Source of the DNA: Aminomonas paucivorans DSM 12260
GTDB lineage: Bacteria; Synergistota; Synergistia; Synergistales; Synergistaceae
DNA: 64,000 nucleotides
Direction: 5' to 3'
Assembly (NCBI RefSeq): GCF_000165795.1
Contig: NZ_CM001022.1
Location: 1,521,812-1,585,811, forward strand
The translations under genes were made by a program, and so were the position numbers. Positions 40,441 through 46,382 of the stretch are shown here, piece after piece (position 1 is the first letter of the stretch; every line of letters starts with the position of its first letter). The notes under the pieces are model-generated. The model ran no database searches and was not told the DNA's origin. It worked only from the letters and a program-made list of their open reading frames with translations.

Positions 40441-40471
40441 GAGGGGAGCCTCGCAGGAAGGTGCTCCCCTC
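40441..40471 (+). other. Hairpin in the flagellin 5' leader
   Basis: GAGGGGAGC (40441-40449) pairs with GCTCCCCTC (40463-40471), 13-base loop containing AGGAAGG. No T run follows, so it is not an obvious terminator. It ends 27 bases before the flagellin start codon and may stabilise the mRNA or tune translation. The 150-bp gap from recN shows no sigma-28 or sigma-54 promoter I could support. Confidence 0.5.
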
Positions 40472-40498
40472 GTGTCTTGCCCTCGGGAGGTGTGGAGG

Positions 40499-43400
40499 TT
40501 GCGGATCTTCACGAACGTCAGCGCCCTGCTCTGTCTCAATACCGCCTCGAAACTGAACCGCCAGCTTTCCAAAGCCCTGAACCGTCTGTCCACGGGACTG
40601 CGCATCAACTCTGCCGCGGACGACGCGGCAGGCATGGCCATCTCCGAGAAGATGCGGGCCCAGACCCGGGGATTGGACCAGGCGGCCCGAAACGCCCAGG
40701 ACGGTATGTCCCTCCTCCAGACTGCAGAGGGTGGGCTTCAGGAGATCCAGTCCATGCTCCAACGGATGAGGGAGCTCTCCGTCCAGGGGGCCAACGACAC
40801 CCTCACCGCCGAGGACCGAGGACACATCCAGACGGAGATCGACCAGCTGGGGGAGCAGATCGACGCCATCGCCCGGCAGACCCAGTTCAACCGAAAGAAG
40901 CTCCTGGACGGAACCCAGGCCGCCCTGTGGAGCACCAGCACCCGGGACATCGGAGTGGTGCTCTCCGGACCGCTCACCTCCAAGGACTCCCTGGGGAACC
41001 TTCATTCCGCCGCGGGGAACTACAAGGTCACCTTCAGCGTCCTTCGGGAAGGACAGGAACAGGTCCAGAAGAGCCACATCCTCTCCCTCAAGCACGGAAC
41101 CCATGAGAACAACGCCGCGGGCAACTGGTCGGGCTCTGGCCTCACCTCCATGTCCGCCTTGAACCTGGTGGAGGGGGTCTGGGGGCTGGAGACCCGGGAA
41201 ACCCCCTTCGGGGGGATCTGGTACTACCAAGGGGCAGCCATCTCCACCGCCGCCGCCATCGGGGCCTCCGTCCAGGCCTCTCCCACCCCCAACATCCTGG
41301 CTCCGGGGTCCTACGACCTCCGGGTCTCCGACCGGGTTCCCATGATGGCCAGCTTCGACCACGCCCTGACCAACGGCATCGTCACGGGGGTGGACATGAG
41401 CAGCCGGGGGGCGGGGTCCAACTTCGACGCGGTCCTGGGCATCCGGGCGGACGAAGGGGCCATCGCCGCGGCATCCCAGACCTACCGCAACGACCTGACG
41501 GGGGGCAAATCCATCACCGCCGACGGGGCCGGGGGGAACGTGGCCTTCACCACCCGGGCGACCAATGACGTGAACCTCTTCACCCACTTCGCCGTGACCG
41601 CCACGGACCGACGGGACCTCATGGCGGGGGACGTCACCCTCACGGAATCCTACGTCACCCACCAGGCCGCCCAGATGACTGTGAACCTGGACTACCGTGG
41701 GACGGACGACACCTCCGCCACCGTCACCTACCGCACCTCCTCCGGGGGCAACACCCTGACCGCCACCTCCACCTGGCAGGCCGCAGCAGGGGCCACCCTG
41801 ACCCTGGACATCGGGGGAGGCCCGGTGACCCTGAACATCGGCGGACGGAACATCGAGGAGATCGCCGCCGACATCAACGCCTCCGGCCTTGCGGGGGTCT
41901 CCGCAAGCGTCGTGACTTCCGGTTCCACCCGACGCATCGACCTGACCAACGCCTCCGGTTCTTCTTTGGACGTGGGCGAGACCGGGGTTGGGGGCGGCGG
42001 TCTCGGATTGGCGGGGACCGTGGCAGACGGGGCCACCGCTGCGGGAGCCTTCCGGGACTACGGCCGGGTCACGGTTCTGGGAGTCAACGGCCAGACCCTG
42101 GCCGACCTCGCTTCTGCCGTGGACGGCATCGCAGGTCTCAACGCCTCGGTGGTCGGCTCCGGGACGACGGCGGCCCAGGTCTCCATCGCCGGAGACGCCA
42201 ACTACCACGTGGACCTCGTCTCGGGGGGCGACATTGCGGGGGAACTGGCCCTGGACCACACCTTTGATGGAGGGGGGACCCACACCTCCACCGCCCGGGC
42301 GCACAACTACGCCGTCACGGCGGCCACGGCGGGGCAGGATCTGGCGGGCATCGCCGCGGCCCTGCAGAACGTGGGGGGGACGGATCTGGGAGTGGCCACC
42401 ACCTCCGCAGGCGCCCTGAACGGCCTCAGCTTCACCGGCGCCAGCCTCTACAGCGTGACCCTTTCCGGCGTAACCATGGGAGAACTCCGTAACGGCAGCT
42501 TCGCCAGCACCACGTTCACTGTGGGACGAGGCGCTGCCGTGACCACGGGCAACCGGGTCTACGTGAACCGCGACGTCACCGTGGCCGTGGGGGATCGGGA
42601 CGCGGGACAGATCGCCTCGGCCCTCCAGACGGGCATCCAGACGGCCCTGGCAGCAGACGGCCTCACGGGCAACAACGCTGGCGCCACCGTTGCCTCCGTG
42701 GGAGGAGGGGTCACCCGGCAGCTGCAGCTGGGCAACCTGGCGGTTTCGGGATACCGGATCGCCCTCACCGGGGGCACCAACAACTCCCTGACGGAGGTCT
42801 GGGGGGGAGGGGTCTCCACAAACCGGGGCACCTCCGCCACGGGCACCCCCAACCTGGACTACGGCCGAACCACCACCGTCACCGTGGCCGGGGACAACAT
42901 CGAACAGGCCTTTGCGACCCTCTCGGGGGTCCATGCGGGTTTACAGGTGACCTGGTCCCAACAGCCCGACCACACGACCCCGCAACACTACGGTCAGATC
43001 GCCTTCACCAACGTCTCCAGTGGGGCGGGGCGCCGGAGGTTGTCCATGACCCAATCCGGAGTCGATTCAGGCCCGGGGATCAACGCCAACCGCAAGCTCT
43101 TCGAAAGCACCGGCTCCCTCTGGTCCACCACGGAGAACACCGGAACCCACGGGGTGACCTCCAACATCCTTCAGGCCCACGACGCGGTCACCCTTCAGGT
43201 GACCGCAAACGGCAACGACGCAAACGCGGCCCACGTGGCGGCGGGAGGAGCGGTGACCCTCTACGAGGGCACGGGGGCGGCCACGGAAACCCAAAACGCC
43301 GGGATCCTCAACGCCGCCTTGGGCCACAGCGTGCTGGATTCCTTCGCCCTTCGGGACGACAACCCCAATGCGGCGGACTTTGCCGTCGGGGAGTCCTGGA

Positions 43401-46297
43401 TGACCTACACCCGGGCCCGGGCGGCGGGAACCAGCGACCGGGTGGATCTGACCCTCTACGACGGCCTGTACCCCGACGCGGGGAACAACGGGGGCGTCAC
43501 CAACGGGATCACCTACGTCTTCAACGACGGCGCCCTGGATGGAGGCAGCCGATCCCTCCACCAGCTGGTGCGCACCGGGGCGGGCATCGGCGGCTCCGCC
43601 GCCCTGAGCCATAACCTGACCTTCGGCACGGTGAACCAGGACACGTCCGTGAGCTACGGGGAACGGGCAGGGGCGGGGGCCTACTGGAACGATACCGCCG
43701 GCACCACCCCGTGGTACGCCCAGTCCTACTACGGGGAGGACACCACCTATTTCTTCGGCAACGGCAGCACCCCCGCCTCCGTGGTGACCGCCGCGGAGCT
43801 GTACCGACAGAACGAGGTGAACGCCTCCCTGATGTTCGAGTACGACGGCACGGACCTCACGGTGCGCGCCAAGGGCTTCCGCCGGGACGGTTCCACCCTC
43901 CCCGCCTCCTGCGACACGACCCCGGAGATCGTGGCGGCTAGCGGGGACGTGACCCTCTTCGGGGAGATCCATTTCACGAACCTCCAGATCGATCGAAGCC
44001 GCCTCACCGCAGGGGACAAGTTCGTCATCAACGTCTCCGCCGCAGCCCTGCTGGACGGGGTCAACGGAACCCCCGCGGACCCCACGGCCTTTCAGTCCAC
44101 CGCCAACATCGCCGTGCAGGGGGACCCGTTCCGGCAGAACCGCCCCGACTGGGGCAGCTCCGCCCAGTACCGCCTGGCCCAGGGCGTGGAAAACGGCCAC
44201 ACCTTCAACCTGCTGGGCTACTTCGTGGATCCCCTCAACGGCAGCAGCGACATCCCCGGACTGGGCTACTACGAGGGGAGTGTCATCCTGGAAGGGGAAG
44301 CAGGAGGCTTCGCCGCGGGCAGCACCGTGGGGGCCCCGGACGGGACGGAGGCCAGCGCCCATCGGGCCCGCCTGGAGATCAACTACCAGGGAGATCTGCG
44401 GCCCTCCGCAGGGGCCCTGGTGACCAGCGTCTTCCTCCAGAGCATGGAGGCGGGGGGGAGCAAGAACATCAAGGACTACGTAGCCGGGGTGGGGTACTCC
44501 AACTACGAGTACGGCACCCGGACGGACGGCACCTACGGCCCCCTGAACGAGTTCCACAGCGAGCGGTACAACCCCTACAACGCCTCCCTGGTCTTTGACG
44601 TGCTGGAGGTGTACAACGGGTCCCTGAAGTTCCGCATCCAGGGTCGGGTCGTGGACCGGGACGGAAACCAGTGGTACGTGGAGGACAACGACTACCGCCT
44701 CAACCTGGGCCCCAACACCAGCAAGAACTCCTCCGCCCTGCCTCCGGTGGTCCCGGCGGAGGTGCTGAACCCGGTGGTGCTGTTTCGGGATTCCGCCTTC
44801 GGCGGCCTGGCCTTCGACGAATTCACCCTTTCCGACAAGGAGACCTGGCACGAGGGGGATCGATTCACCCTCGCCCTCACCGCCAGCGGCTTCGTCAACG
44901 GCCTGAGCGAAGCGGAACAGCAGGCCGACCCGGCCCTCCGGCCCAACACCGACGAGATCGACCTGTTCTCCGACAACCGGGGCACCAACATGCCCCACTC
45001 TTTCCGCTTCAACGAAGGGATCCTGGACCACCGGAAGCTGGATCTGGGGATCTACCAGCTGGCAAACAACATCGCCAAGCCCGACAGCGACCATTTCCAC
45101 CGCGACCAGGTGATGGACGGCACCCTGTCTCTGGCCTTCGGGGACTACCATCCCGGAGGAGAACCGGTCCTGACGGACTCCCTTACCTTCGAGGTGCTCT
45201 ACCAGCAGGGCATGGACGCGGGCAAGGCCCACTACTACAGCCGGGCGGAGGACATCGCCCAGTTTTACGGCAAGAACGGCCGTTTTCTCCTGGAGAACAA
45301 CACGGAACAGCTCACCATCCGTCAGGGAGACCGGGAGATCCACGTCCCCCTGGGGTCCCTTTCGGAGATGGGCAAGCTGGGGGAGCAGATCTCCGAACAG
45401 ATCTGGCTGCACCTGCTCATGCAGCACGACGGGGTTCTCCGGGGGGAGGACGACATCCTGCCCTACGGCTACAACCCCGACCTGATGGAGGAAAAGGACA
45501 AACGGGAGATCTTCCAGTTCGTGAACAACGTCCCCGGGGAAAGCGGAAATGAAGCCGTCATGGCCACCTTCCTTGCCCACTCCGTGTTGCCCGGGGAGGA
45601 GGGAAAGCTCCACTTCTACGGCAGCGAGGACCTTCTGAAGGCCCTGGGGTTTGCCACCATCCAGGAGGCCCAAGACACGGAGTTCCGAGTGCGCGCTGCG
45701 GACGCCCACTCGGGAAAGCAGGCGGGGCAGGGAGGGAACGTTCTGGCGGGAAAGCGCCTCTACGGACTTCTGGGGGACAACGTGGCTCTGGACATCGGGA
45801 GCACCCTCGGCCTGAGCCGGATCACCTTCGACCACAAGCGGGGCACCTTCGATGCGGGGCTCAAGTCCTCCTTCGACCAATTCGTCCACCTGGCGGACAG
45901 CACCGCCCAGCTTCAGGTAGGGGCCAACGAGGGGGAAGACCTGTCCCTCATTCTGGGGGACGTGCAGGTTCGAGCCCTGGACGTGGACAACCTGGACGTG
46001 CGGAGCCAGGAGGCGGCGGCGCGCAGCATCACCCGGCTGGACAATGCCCTGGACCGGGTCTCCACCCAGCGGGCCGCCATCGGGGCACAGATCAACCGGT
46101 TGGAGCACACCGTCCCGCAGCTCCAGACGGCCTCGGCACACCTGAACGCCGCCCGGTCCCGGATCCTGGACGCGGACATGGCCCGGGAGATGATGGAGTT
46201 CACCAAGCTGAACATCCTCATGCAGGCCAACAACATGGTCACCTCCCAGGCCAACCAGCTTCCCTCGCAGGTCCTGAGCCTGCTGAACCAGAGATAA
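40499..46297 (+). CDS. Giant flagellin
   Basis: 1,932 residues, several times the usual 280-550. Conserved terminal D0/D1 domains: N-terminal RIFTNVSAL...LNRLSTGLRINSAADDAAGMAISEKMR (about 1-140, ending FNRKKLLDG) and C-terminal ARSITRLDNALDRVSTQRAAIGAQINRLEH...MANQLPSQVLSLL-type end (about 1835-1932). Between them lie about 1,690 residues. Residues about 430-830 look like repeated flagellin IN-type motifs (VTLNIGGRNIEEIAADINA and similar). Two related modules start near 1107 (NASLMFEYDG) and 1361 (NASLVFDV). The TTG at 40499 is chosen because GGGAGG ends 8 bases upstream and it gives the normal flagellin N terminus. No other flagellar gene is nearby. Exported by the flagellar type III system; no signal peptide. 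Confidence 0.92.
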   Translation: MRIFTNVSALLCLNTASKLNRQLSKALNRLSTGLRINSAADDAAGMAISEKMRAQTRGLDQAARNAQDGMSLLQTAEGGLQEIQSMLQRMRELSVQGANDTLTAEDRGHIQTEIDQLGEQIDAIARQTQFNRKKLLDGTQAALWSTSTRDIGVVLSGPLTSKDSLGNLHSAAGNYKVTFSVLREGQEQVQKSHILSLKHGTHENNAAGNWSGSGLTSMSALNLVEGVWGLETRETPFGGIWYYQGAAISTAAAIGASVQASPTPNILAPGSYDLRVSDRVPMMASFDHALTNGIVTGVDMSSRGAGSNFDAVLGIRADEGAIAAASQTYRNDLTGGKSITADGAGGNVAFTTRATNDVNLFTHFAVTATDRRDLMAGDVTLTESYVTHQAAQMTVNLDYRGTDDTSATVTYRTSSGGNTLTATSTWQAAAGATLTLDIGGGPVTLNIGGRNIEEIAADINASGLAGVSASVVTSGSTRRIDLTNASGSSLDVGETGVGGGGLGLAGTVADGATAAGAFRDYGRVTVLGVNGQTLADLASAVDGIAGLNASVVGSGTTAAQVSIAGDANYHVDLVSGGDIAGELALDHTFDGGGTHTSTARAHNYAVTAATAGQDLAGIAAALQNVGGTDLGVATTSAGALNGLSFTGASLYSVTLSGVTMGELRNGSFASTTFTVGRGAAVTTGNRVYVNRDVTVAVGDRDAGQIASALQTGIQTALAADGLTGNNAGATVASVGGGVTRQLQLGNLAVSGYRIALTGGTNNSLTEVWGGGVSTNRGTSATGTPNLDYGRTTTVTVAGDNIEQAFATLSGVHAGLQVTWSQQPDHTTPQHYGQIAFTNVSSGAGRRRLSMTQSGVDSGPGINANRKLFESTGSLWSTTENTGTHGVTSNILQAHDAVTLQVTANGNDANAAHVAAGGAVTLYEGTGAATETQNAGILNAALGHSVLDSFALRDDNPNAADFAVGESWMTYTRARAAGTSDRVDLTLYDGLYPDAGNNGGVTNGITYVFNDGALDGGSRSLHQLVRTGAGIGGSAALSHNLTFGTVNQDTSVSYGERAGAGAYWNDTAGTTPWYAQSYYGEDTTYFFGNGSTPASVVTAAELYRQNEVNASLMFEYDGTDLTVRAKGFRRDGSTLPASCDTTPEIVAASGDVTLFGEIHFTNLQIDRSRLTAGDKFVINVSAAALLDGVNGTPADPTAFQSTANIAVQGDPFRQNRPDWGSSAQYRLAQGVENGHTFNLLGYFVDPLNGSSDIPGLGYYEGSVILEGEAGGFAAGSTVGAPDGTEASAHRARLEINYQGDLRPSAGALVTSVFLQSMEAGGSKNIKDYVAGVGYSNYEYGTRTDGTYGPLNEFHSERYNPYNASLVFDVLEVYNGSLKFRIQGRVVDRDGNQWYVEDNDYRLNLGPNTSKNSSALPPVVPAEVLNPVVLFRDSAFGGLAFDEFTLSDKETWHEGDRFTLALTASGFVNGLSEAEQQADPALRPNTDEIDLFSDNRGTNMPHSFRFNEGILDHRKLDLGIYQLANNIAKPDSDHFHRDQVMDGTLSLAFGDYHPGGEPVLTDSLTFEVLYQQGMDAGKAHYYSRAEDIAQFYGKNGRFLLENNTEQLTIRQGDREIHVPLGSLSEMGKLGEQISEQIWLHLLMQHDGVLRGEDDILPYGYNPDLMEEKDKREIFQFVNNVPGESGNEAVMATFLAHSVLPGEEGKLHFYGSEDLLKALGFATIQEAQDTEFRVRAADAHSGKQAGQGGNVLAGKRLYGLLGDNVALDIGSTLGLSRITFDHKRGTFDAGLKSSFDQFVHLADSTAQLQVGANEGEDLSLILGDVQVRALDVDNLDVRSQEAAARSITRLDNALDRVSTQRAAIGAQINRLEHTVPQLQTASAHLNAARSRILDADMAREMMEFTKLNILMQANNMVTSQANQLPSQVLSLLNQR

Positions 46298-46339: not shown

Positions 46340-46382
46340 CACGTCAAGGCGGCTGCAGAGGATCCGCAGCCGCCTTGACGTG
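46340..46382 (+). terminator. Hairpin after the flagellin gene
   Basis: Perfect 17-bp stem (46340-46356 with 46366-46382), 9-base loop, followed by TCCCCCTT with no real T run. Probably the flagellin terminator or an mRNA 3'-end stabiliser. Its 3' arm contains the -35 hexamer of the next promoter. Confidence 0.7.

Follow-up and report, generated by a model that had tools for sequence, protein, structure and literature searches.

A 1,932-residue flagellin gene between recN and rplU

The window, the whole 64,000-nucleotide stretch of the Aminomonas paucivorans genome analyzed here, contains a flagellin gene whose open reading frame runs from a TTG start codon at 40499 to a stop codon at 46295-46297 without an internal stop, encoding 1,932 residues (~203 kDa and pI ~4.9, as computed). 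A Shine-Dalgarno-like GGGAGGTG 6 nt 5' of the TTG would provide a good ribosome-binding site. Pfam placed Flagellin_N at residues 3-140 (E 2.8e-43, 147.8 bits, cut-off 26.6) and Flagellin_C at residues 1845-1929 (E 4.2e-23, 81.9 bits, cut-off 23). The first-pass annotation of this DNA had described one intact 1,932-residue frame with D0/D1 ends flanked by recN and rplU, and the reading frame and Pfam matches bore this out. The locus has the following features.

40443..40469, + strand: leader hairpin GGGGAGC/GCTCCCC, recN terminator or attenuator (sequence, fold z -2.3)
40485..40492, + strand: Shine-Dalgarno-like GGGAGGTG (sequence)
40499..46297, + strand: giant flagellin gene, 1,932 aa, TTG start (ORF, Pfam)
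46340..46382, + strand: strong terminator-like hairpin of 17-18 bp in the gap between the flagellin gene and rplU (-39.8 kcal/mol, z -8.5)

The hairpin at 46340-46382 is long and perfect and lies just 5' of rplU, as a terminator or possibly a regulatory leader; an Rfam search around the giant flagellin gene and this hairpin gave no match near them. With a hairpin on each side, the giant flagellin gene looks like a separate transcription unit. Its 5' neighbors are dxs, an S4/FtsJ methyltransferase gene, nadK and recN, and its 3' neighbors are rplU, prp, obg and genes for a nadD-like cytidylyltransferase and a LytR-CpsA-Psr protein. All are housekeeping genes and none is flagellar; ten more genes sampled over the window were also non-flagellar, so that the gene is an orphan, as first described. 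No convincing sigma-28 promoter was found 5' of the gene. The best site scored 9/12 at -90, similar scores occurred elsewhere and the strict consensus had zero matches in the whole genome; a sigma-28 promoter is therefore not claimed.

Predicted domain architecture

Comparison of the giant with the 777-aa flagellin of the same genome by BLAST aligned residues 1-230 at 51% and residues 1557-1929 at 38%, the remainder being extra. Pfam gave no significant match in the ~1,700 residues between Flagellin_N and Flagellin_C of the window protein, and BLAST self-comparison revealed no internal repeat; the repeats emerged from profile comparison. The predicted layout is as follows.

40499..40918, + strand: D0/D1 N-terminal helices, residues 1-140, Flagellin_N (Pfam)
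40919..41188, + strand: residues 141-230, common to ordinary flagellin (alignment, 1-230 at 51%)
41189..41770, + strand: giant-specific segment, residues 231-424 (comparison with ordinary flagellin, profiles)
41771..43123, + strand: five Flagellin_IN-like modules, residues 425-512, 515-603, 604-690, 692-785 and 788-875 (pairwise hhalign; PF07196 in two relatives; AF2 module 1 versus FliD)
43124..43456, + strand: segment Z, residues 876-986, similar at its end to the last part of domain Y over 31 columns only (profile comparison)
43457..44173, + strand: beta domain X, residues 987-1225, first outer-domain copy, FlgK/FlgL-like fold (profiles, structure match)
44174..44398, + strand: highly conserved linker, residues 1226-1300, fold not predicted (AF2, identity)
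44399..45166, + strand: beta domain Y, residues 1301-1556, second outer-domain copy, resembling that of the Geovibrio flagellin 9au6 (profiles, structure match)
45167..46030, + strand: return strand, residues 1557-1844, common to ordinary flagellin (alignment, 1557-1929 at 38%)
46031..46294, + strand: D1/D0 C-terminal helices, residues 1845-1932, Flagellin_C (Pfam)

Comparison of module profiles built on 21 giants (hhalign) revealed that the five modules at residues 425-875 are mutually similar, with most pairs at 71-96% probability and the M3 versus M5 pair failing at 9.6%. Flagellin_IN (PF07196) had no Pfam match above cut-off in the window protein. It was matched in two relatives (best E 8.3e-06; 0.0027 at locus L038; one match reached 18.3 bits, the cut-off being 22.7), and the AF2-modelled first module matched FliD with Z 7.8. 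The modules of the giant resemble Flagellin_IN in sequence, and we describe them as such without formal assignment to the family. An OCRE match in one relative was judged spurious.

Domains X and Y matched each other at 96.9% probability (hhalign) and both matched the outer domain of ordinary flagellin at 86-92%, compared with at most 3.8% for reversed decoys. Domain Y also matched residues 233-432 of the solved filament 9au6 (Z 8.6 over 176 residues), and domain X matched domains of FlgK and FlgL (Z 4-7). These flagellar structure matches came only from a second comparison (VIA, Z 5-8.6) and are weak if taken alone; Foldseek on the first model gave no match at E 0.001, and the central-region profile found none among the sequences of solved structures. 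The AF2 models were weak (mean pLDDT 55 and 50) and modelling failed for residues ~1182-1312 (pLDDT <35 over most of the stretch), so the domain folds rest mainly on sequence profiles. By these profiles, the extra bulk of the giant is predicted to consist of roughly five IN modules of FliD type together with a pair of beta domains that are related to each other.

Relationship to known giant flagellins

The giant scored 229.7 bits against flagellin Hag and 106.8 bits against FlgL (TIGR02550), below the FlgL cut-off of 127.2, and a separate FlgL of ~1,022 aa is encoded in the same genome. With 1,932 aa it exceeds the >1,000 aa that define a giant flagellin (Thomson 2018), and it carries the internal domain duplication of that class in its X/Y pair and five IN-like modules. 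The extreme size first ascribed to it was borne out; the ordinary flagellins of the same genome have 777 and 775 aa. The first-pass annotation had placed giant flagellins mainly in marine gammaproteobacteria; they occur in many phyla including Synergistetes, for which Aminomonas paucivorans is the example named in figure 1 of Thomson 2018 (PMC6248924). As the genome encodes one flagellin >1,000 aa apart from FlgL, that giant is very probably the same protein. We conclude that the gene is real and intact and that its predicted product is an outsized flagellum subunit of a kind already reported in Synergistota. The giant itself is thus already known in this phylum, and its anatomy appears to be the undescribed part.

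The giants of Bermanella and Oleibacter, both gammaproteobacterial, assemble into filaments that measure at least 30 nm in the absence of any other flagellin (PMC6248924). They share with the present protein the D0/D1 ends, a length >1,000 aa and an outer-domain duplication with a further insert. In those two organisms the filament is built from the giant, with no second flagellin, whereas here the giant is an extra paralog. As judged by comparisons that did not extend to the DE-region model, the duplicated domain here (outer domain of Geovibrio type) and the inserts (IN modules) come from different families. The Geovibrio thiophilus flagellin (9au6, 793 aa) is homologous end to end with ordinary Synergistota flagellin (E 5.6e-107 for that of this genome) and its outer domain matches Y, but it lacks an IN array and does not reach half the length of the giant. 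The ordinary Synergistota flagellin (777/775 aa) has residues 1-230 and 1557-1932 in common with the giant, and its outer domain is related to both X and Y; this flagellin differs in lying within the flagellar cluster, in having one outer domain and in an outer part far less conserved than that of the giant. Flagellinolysin is likewise a flagellin with a large insert in the outer region, functional in that case, and possesses an HExxH motif. This motif is absent from the giant, which scored 61.6 bits against the NCBIfam flagellinolysin model (cut-off 205) by matching its common flagellin end. No enzyme domain was detected in the giant (no HExxH, no Pfam enzyme match), and the enzymatic role first suggested found no backing.

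Ordinary flagellins and other flagellar genes

The presence of a second, normal-length flagellin had been proposed as a check, and two were found, of 777 and 775 aa, in tandem within the flagellar cluster. The tandem genes (L025:10894-16130) are nearly identical, as is the DNA upstream of each, which suggests recent duplication or gene conversion. An ordinary flagellin was present in full in 10 of the 12 surveyed giant-bearing relatives; G030 had only a contig-end fragment and G118 was the remaining case. Since ordinary flagellins are available, the filament need not consist entirely of the giant.

FlgK, FlgL, FliD, FliS, FlhA and FliA are encoded in the same genome as the giant, and the core flagellar genes checked there were uninterrupted. 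Several axial proteins are long: FlgL has ~1,022 aa (L025:3495-6569), FlgK ~873 aa (L025:854-3481) and FliD a frame of at most 968 aa (L098). Whether the remaining components of the flagellum are enlarged to match was a question raised by Thomson et al. (PMC6248924). FlgK, FlgL and FliD are unusually long here, and this is general among the Synergistota relatives examined without tracking the giant, FlgL frames of ~900-1,500 aa occurring in relatives with and without one.

Distribution and origin of the giants

Relatives from several other genera were 57-65% identical to the giant over ~1,920 residues, and full-length relatives of 1,930-2,140 aa came from independent assemblies; the alignments place their similarity far beyond chance. 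The central-region profile matched 26 of 188 Synergistota genomes and 13 of 63 genera, some via partial contigs. Judged from isolate names, some relatives come from MAGs of Synergistaceae living in termite guts or in association with other hosts. At most of the loci read, the giants stand alone among unrelated genes and the neighbors differ each time; in genome G011, a truncated giant lies ~6 kb from a flgK/flgL cluster. In at least 10 relatives, including G022 whose giant sits elsewhere, recN adjoins rplU with no flagellin between, which argues that the giant gene arrived at this site on its own, by insertion or relocation as one unit. Genome G060 (L058, L076, G060:C13) carries ~20 Flagellin_N matches, with frames including 2,030, 2,073, 1,714 and 1,514 aa.

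In a D0/D1 tree, ordinary flagellins lay on one side and giants on the other side of a branch with support 100; as the tree is midpoint-rooted, this does not prove monophyly of the giants. By sequence, we regard the giant and the ordinary ~777-aa flagellin as paralogs that separated long ago. Horizontal transfer was considered, as the window giant groups in this tree with a giant from another family, and was rejected; its base composition fits the host and hidden paralogy explains the grouping equally.

Conservation of the outer region

In flagellins, the outer domains are as a rule the part of the filament that varies most, and they are regarded as decoration. In six close giants, identity to the window giant was 69% and 64% for the core ends, 48-54% for the IN modules, 63% for X, 72% for the linker and 69% for Y. 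Ordinary flagellins from nearly the same genomes had 86% and 79% identity in the core and 51% in the outer domain. The giants evolve faster overall than ordinary flagellins, yet X-Y lacks the usual outer-domain drop. The first-pass annotation had called the middle a variable region of ~1,690 residues; the long middle between the D0/D1 ends stands, but by these identities residues ~1030-1535, the outer X-Y region, have been kept across species to the same degree as the filament core. Analysis of two pairs of close giants by a simple method gave dN/dS values of 0.15-0.25, highest in the IN array, and by this measure close giants are under purifying selection. The well-kept outer part suggests a specific surface job.

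Proposed role and alternative explanations

Judging from its domains, the D0/D1 ends should make the giant a substrate of the flagellar type III export apparatus and allow it to polymerize into the filament like any flagellin. Between these ends the chain is predicted to go outward, make a bulky multi-domain outer region and return. Profile comparison shows that this region derives from an ordinary Synergistota flagellin plan to which roughly five IN modules of FliD type, additional segments and a duplicate of the outer beta domain were added, the order of events being conjectural. We favor, at a probability of about 0.6, a genuine second-class flagellin, most likely a subunit that is minor or made conditionally, that thickens the filament locally or decorates it, and whose X-Y region has a specific job. 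The giant would co-assemble with ordinary flagellin, and the conserved X-Y domains may serve, for example, subunit packing or surface binding. The term minor follows solely from the coexistence of ordinary flagellins encoded alongside. Against this reading, the type strain (GLU-3) is reported to have many motility genes but no flagella and no observed motility (PMC3035310), no convincing sigma-28 promoter was found, and the AF2 models are too weak to give the arrangement of the domains. The use of a Fretibacterium fastidiosum flagellin as a marker in a periodontitis metatranscriptome (PMC5515211) was set aside as expression support because which flagellin is meant is not specified.

The giant could instead be the main subunit of an alternative thick, condition-dependent filament of the Bermanella and Oleibacter type, in which case the ordinary flagellins would form a separate thin one. 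The filaments of at least 30 nm formed by those giants (PMC6248924) and the gene's own transcription-unit layout, with a hairpin on both sides, speak for this, but Bermanella and Oleibacter have no other flagellin, whereas ordinary flagellins occur in this genome and in 10 of the 12 giant-bearing relatives; we consider it unlikely. An equally doubtful explanation is that the giant serves mainly for adhesion or ligand binding at the surface, with the filament as its carrier. Although the outer X-linker-Y is as conserved as the core and some relatives appear host-associated, the Pfam search gave no match to a known family of adhesins or carbohydrate-binding proteins, an association with a host is not evident for several relatives, and packing between adjacent subunits could explain the conservation equally.

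The reported absence of flagella and motility in the type strain could also mean that flagellation was lost and that the gene is a remnant out of use. This is less probable still, as nothing breaks the 5.8-kb frame, purifying selection acts on close relatives and the core flagellar genes checked are uninterrupted. For an assembly error fusing unrelated genes we found no supporting point; the misjoin feared at first is contradicted by full-length relatives at unrelated loci in independent assemblies and by a base composition uniform along the gene and equal to that of its neighbors, and its likelihood is negligible.

Returning to the second-class flagellin, a broader form of this reading is a phylum-specific, vertically old class of accessory flagellins with a conserved outer region, co-assembled with ordinary flagellin and dedicated to binding or packing; we offer this tentatively, as a possibility short of even odds. 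An outer part held as tightly as the core would point to a defined function that can be tested.
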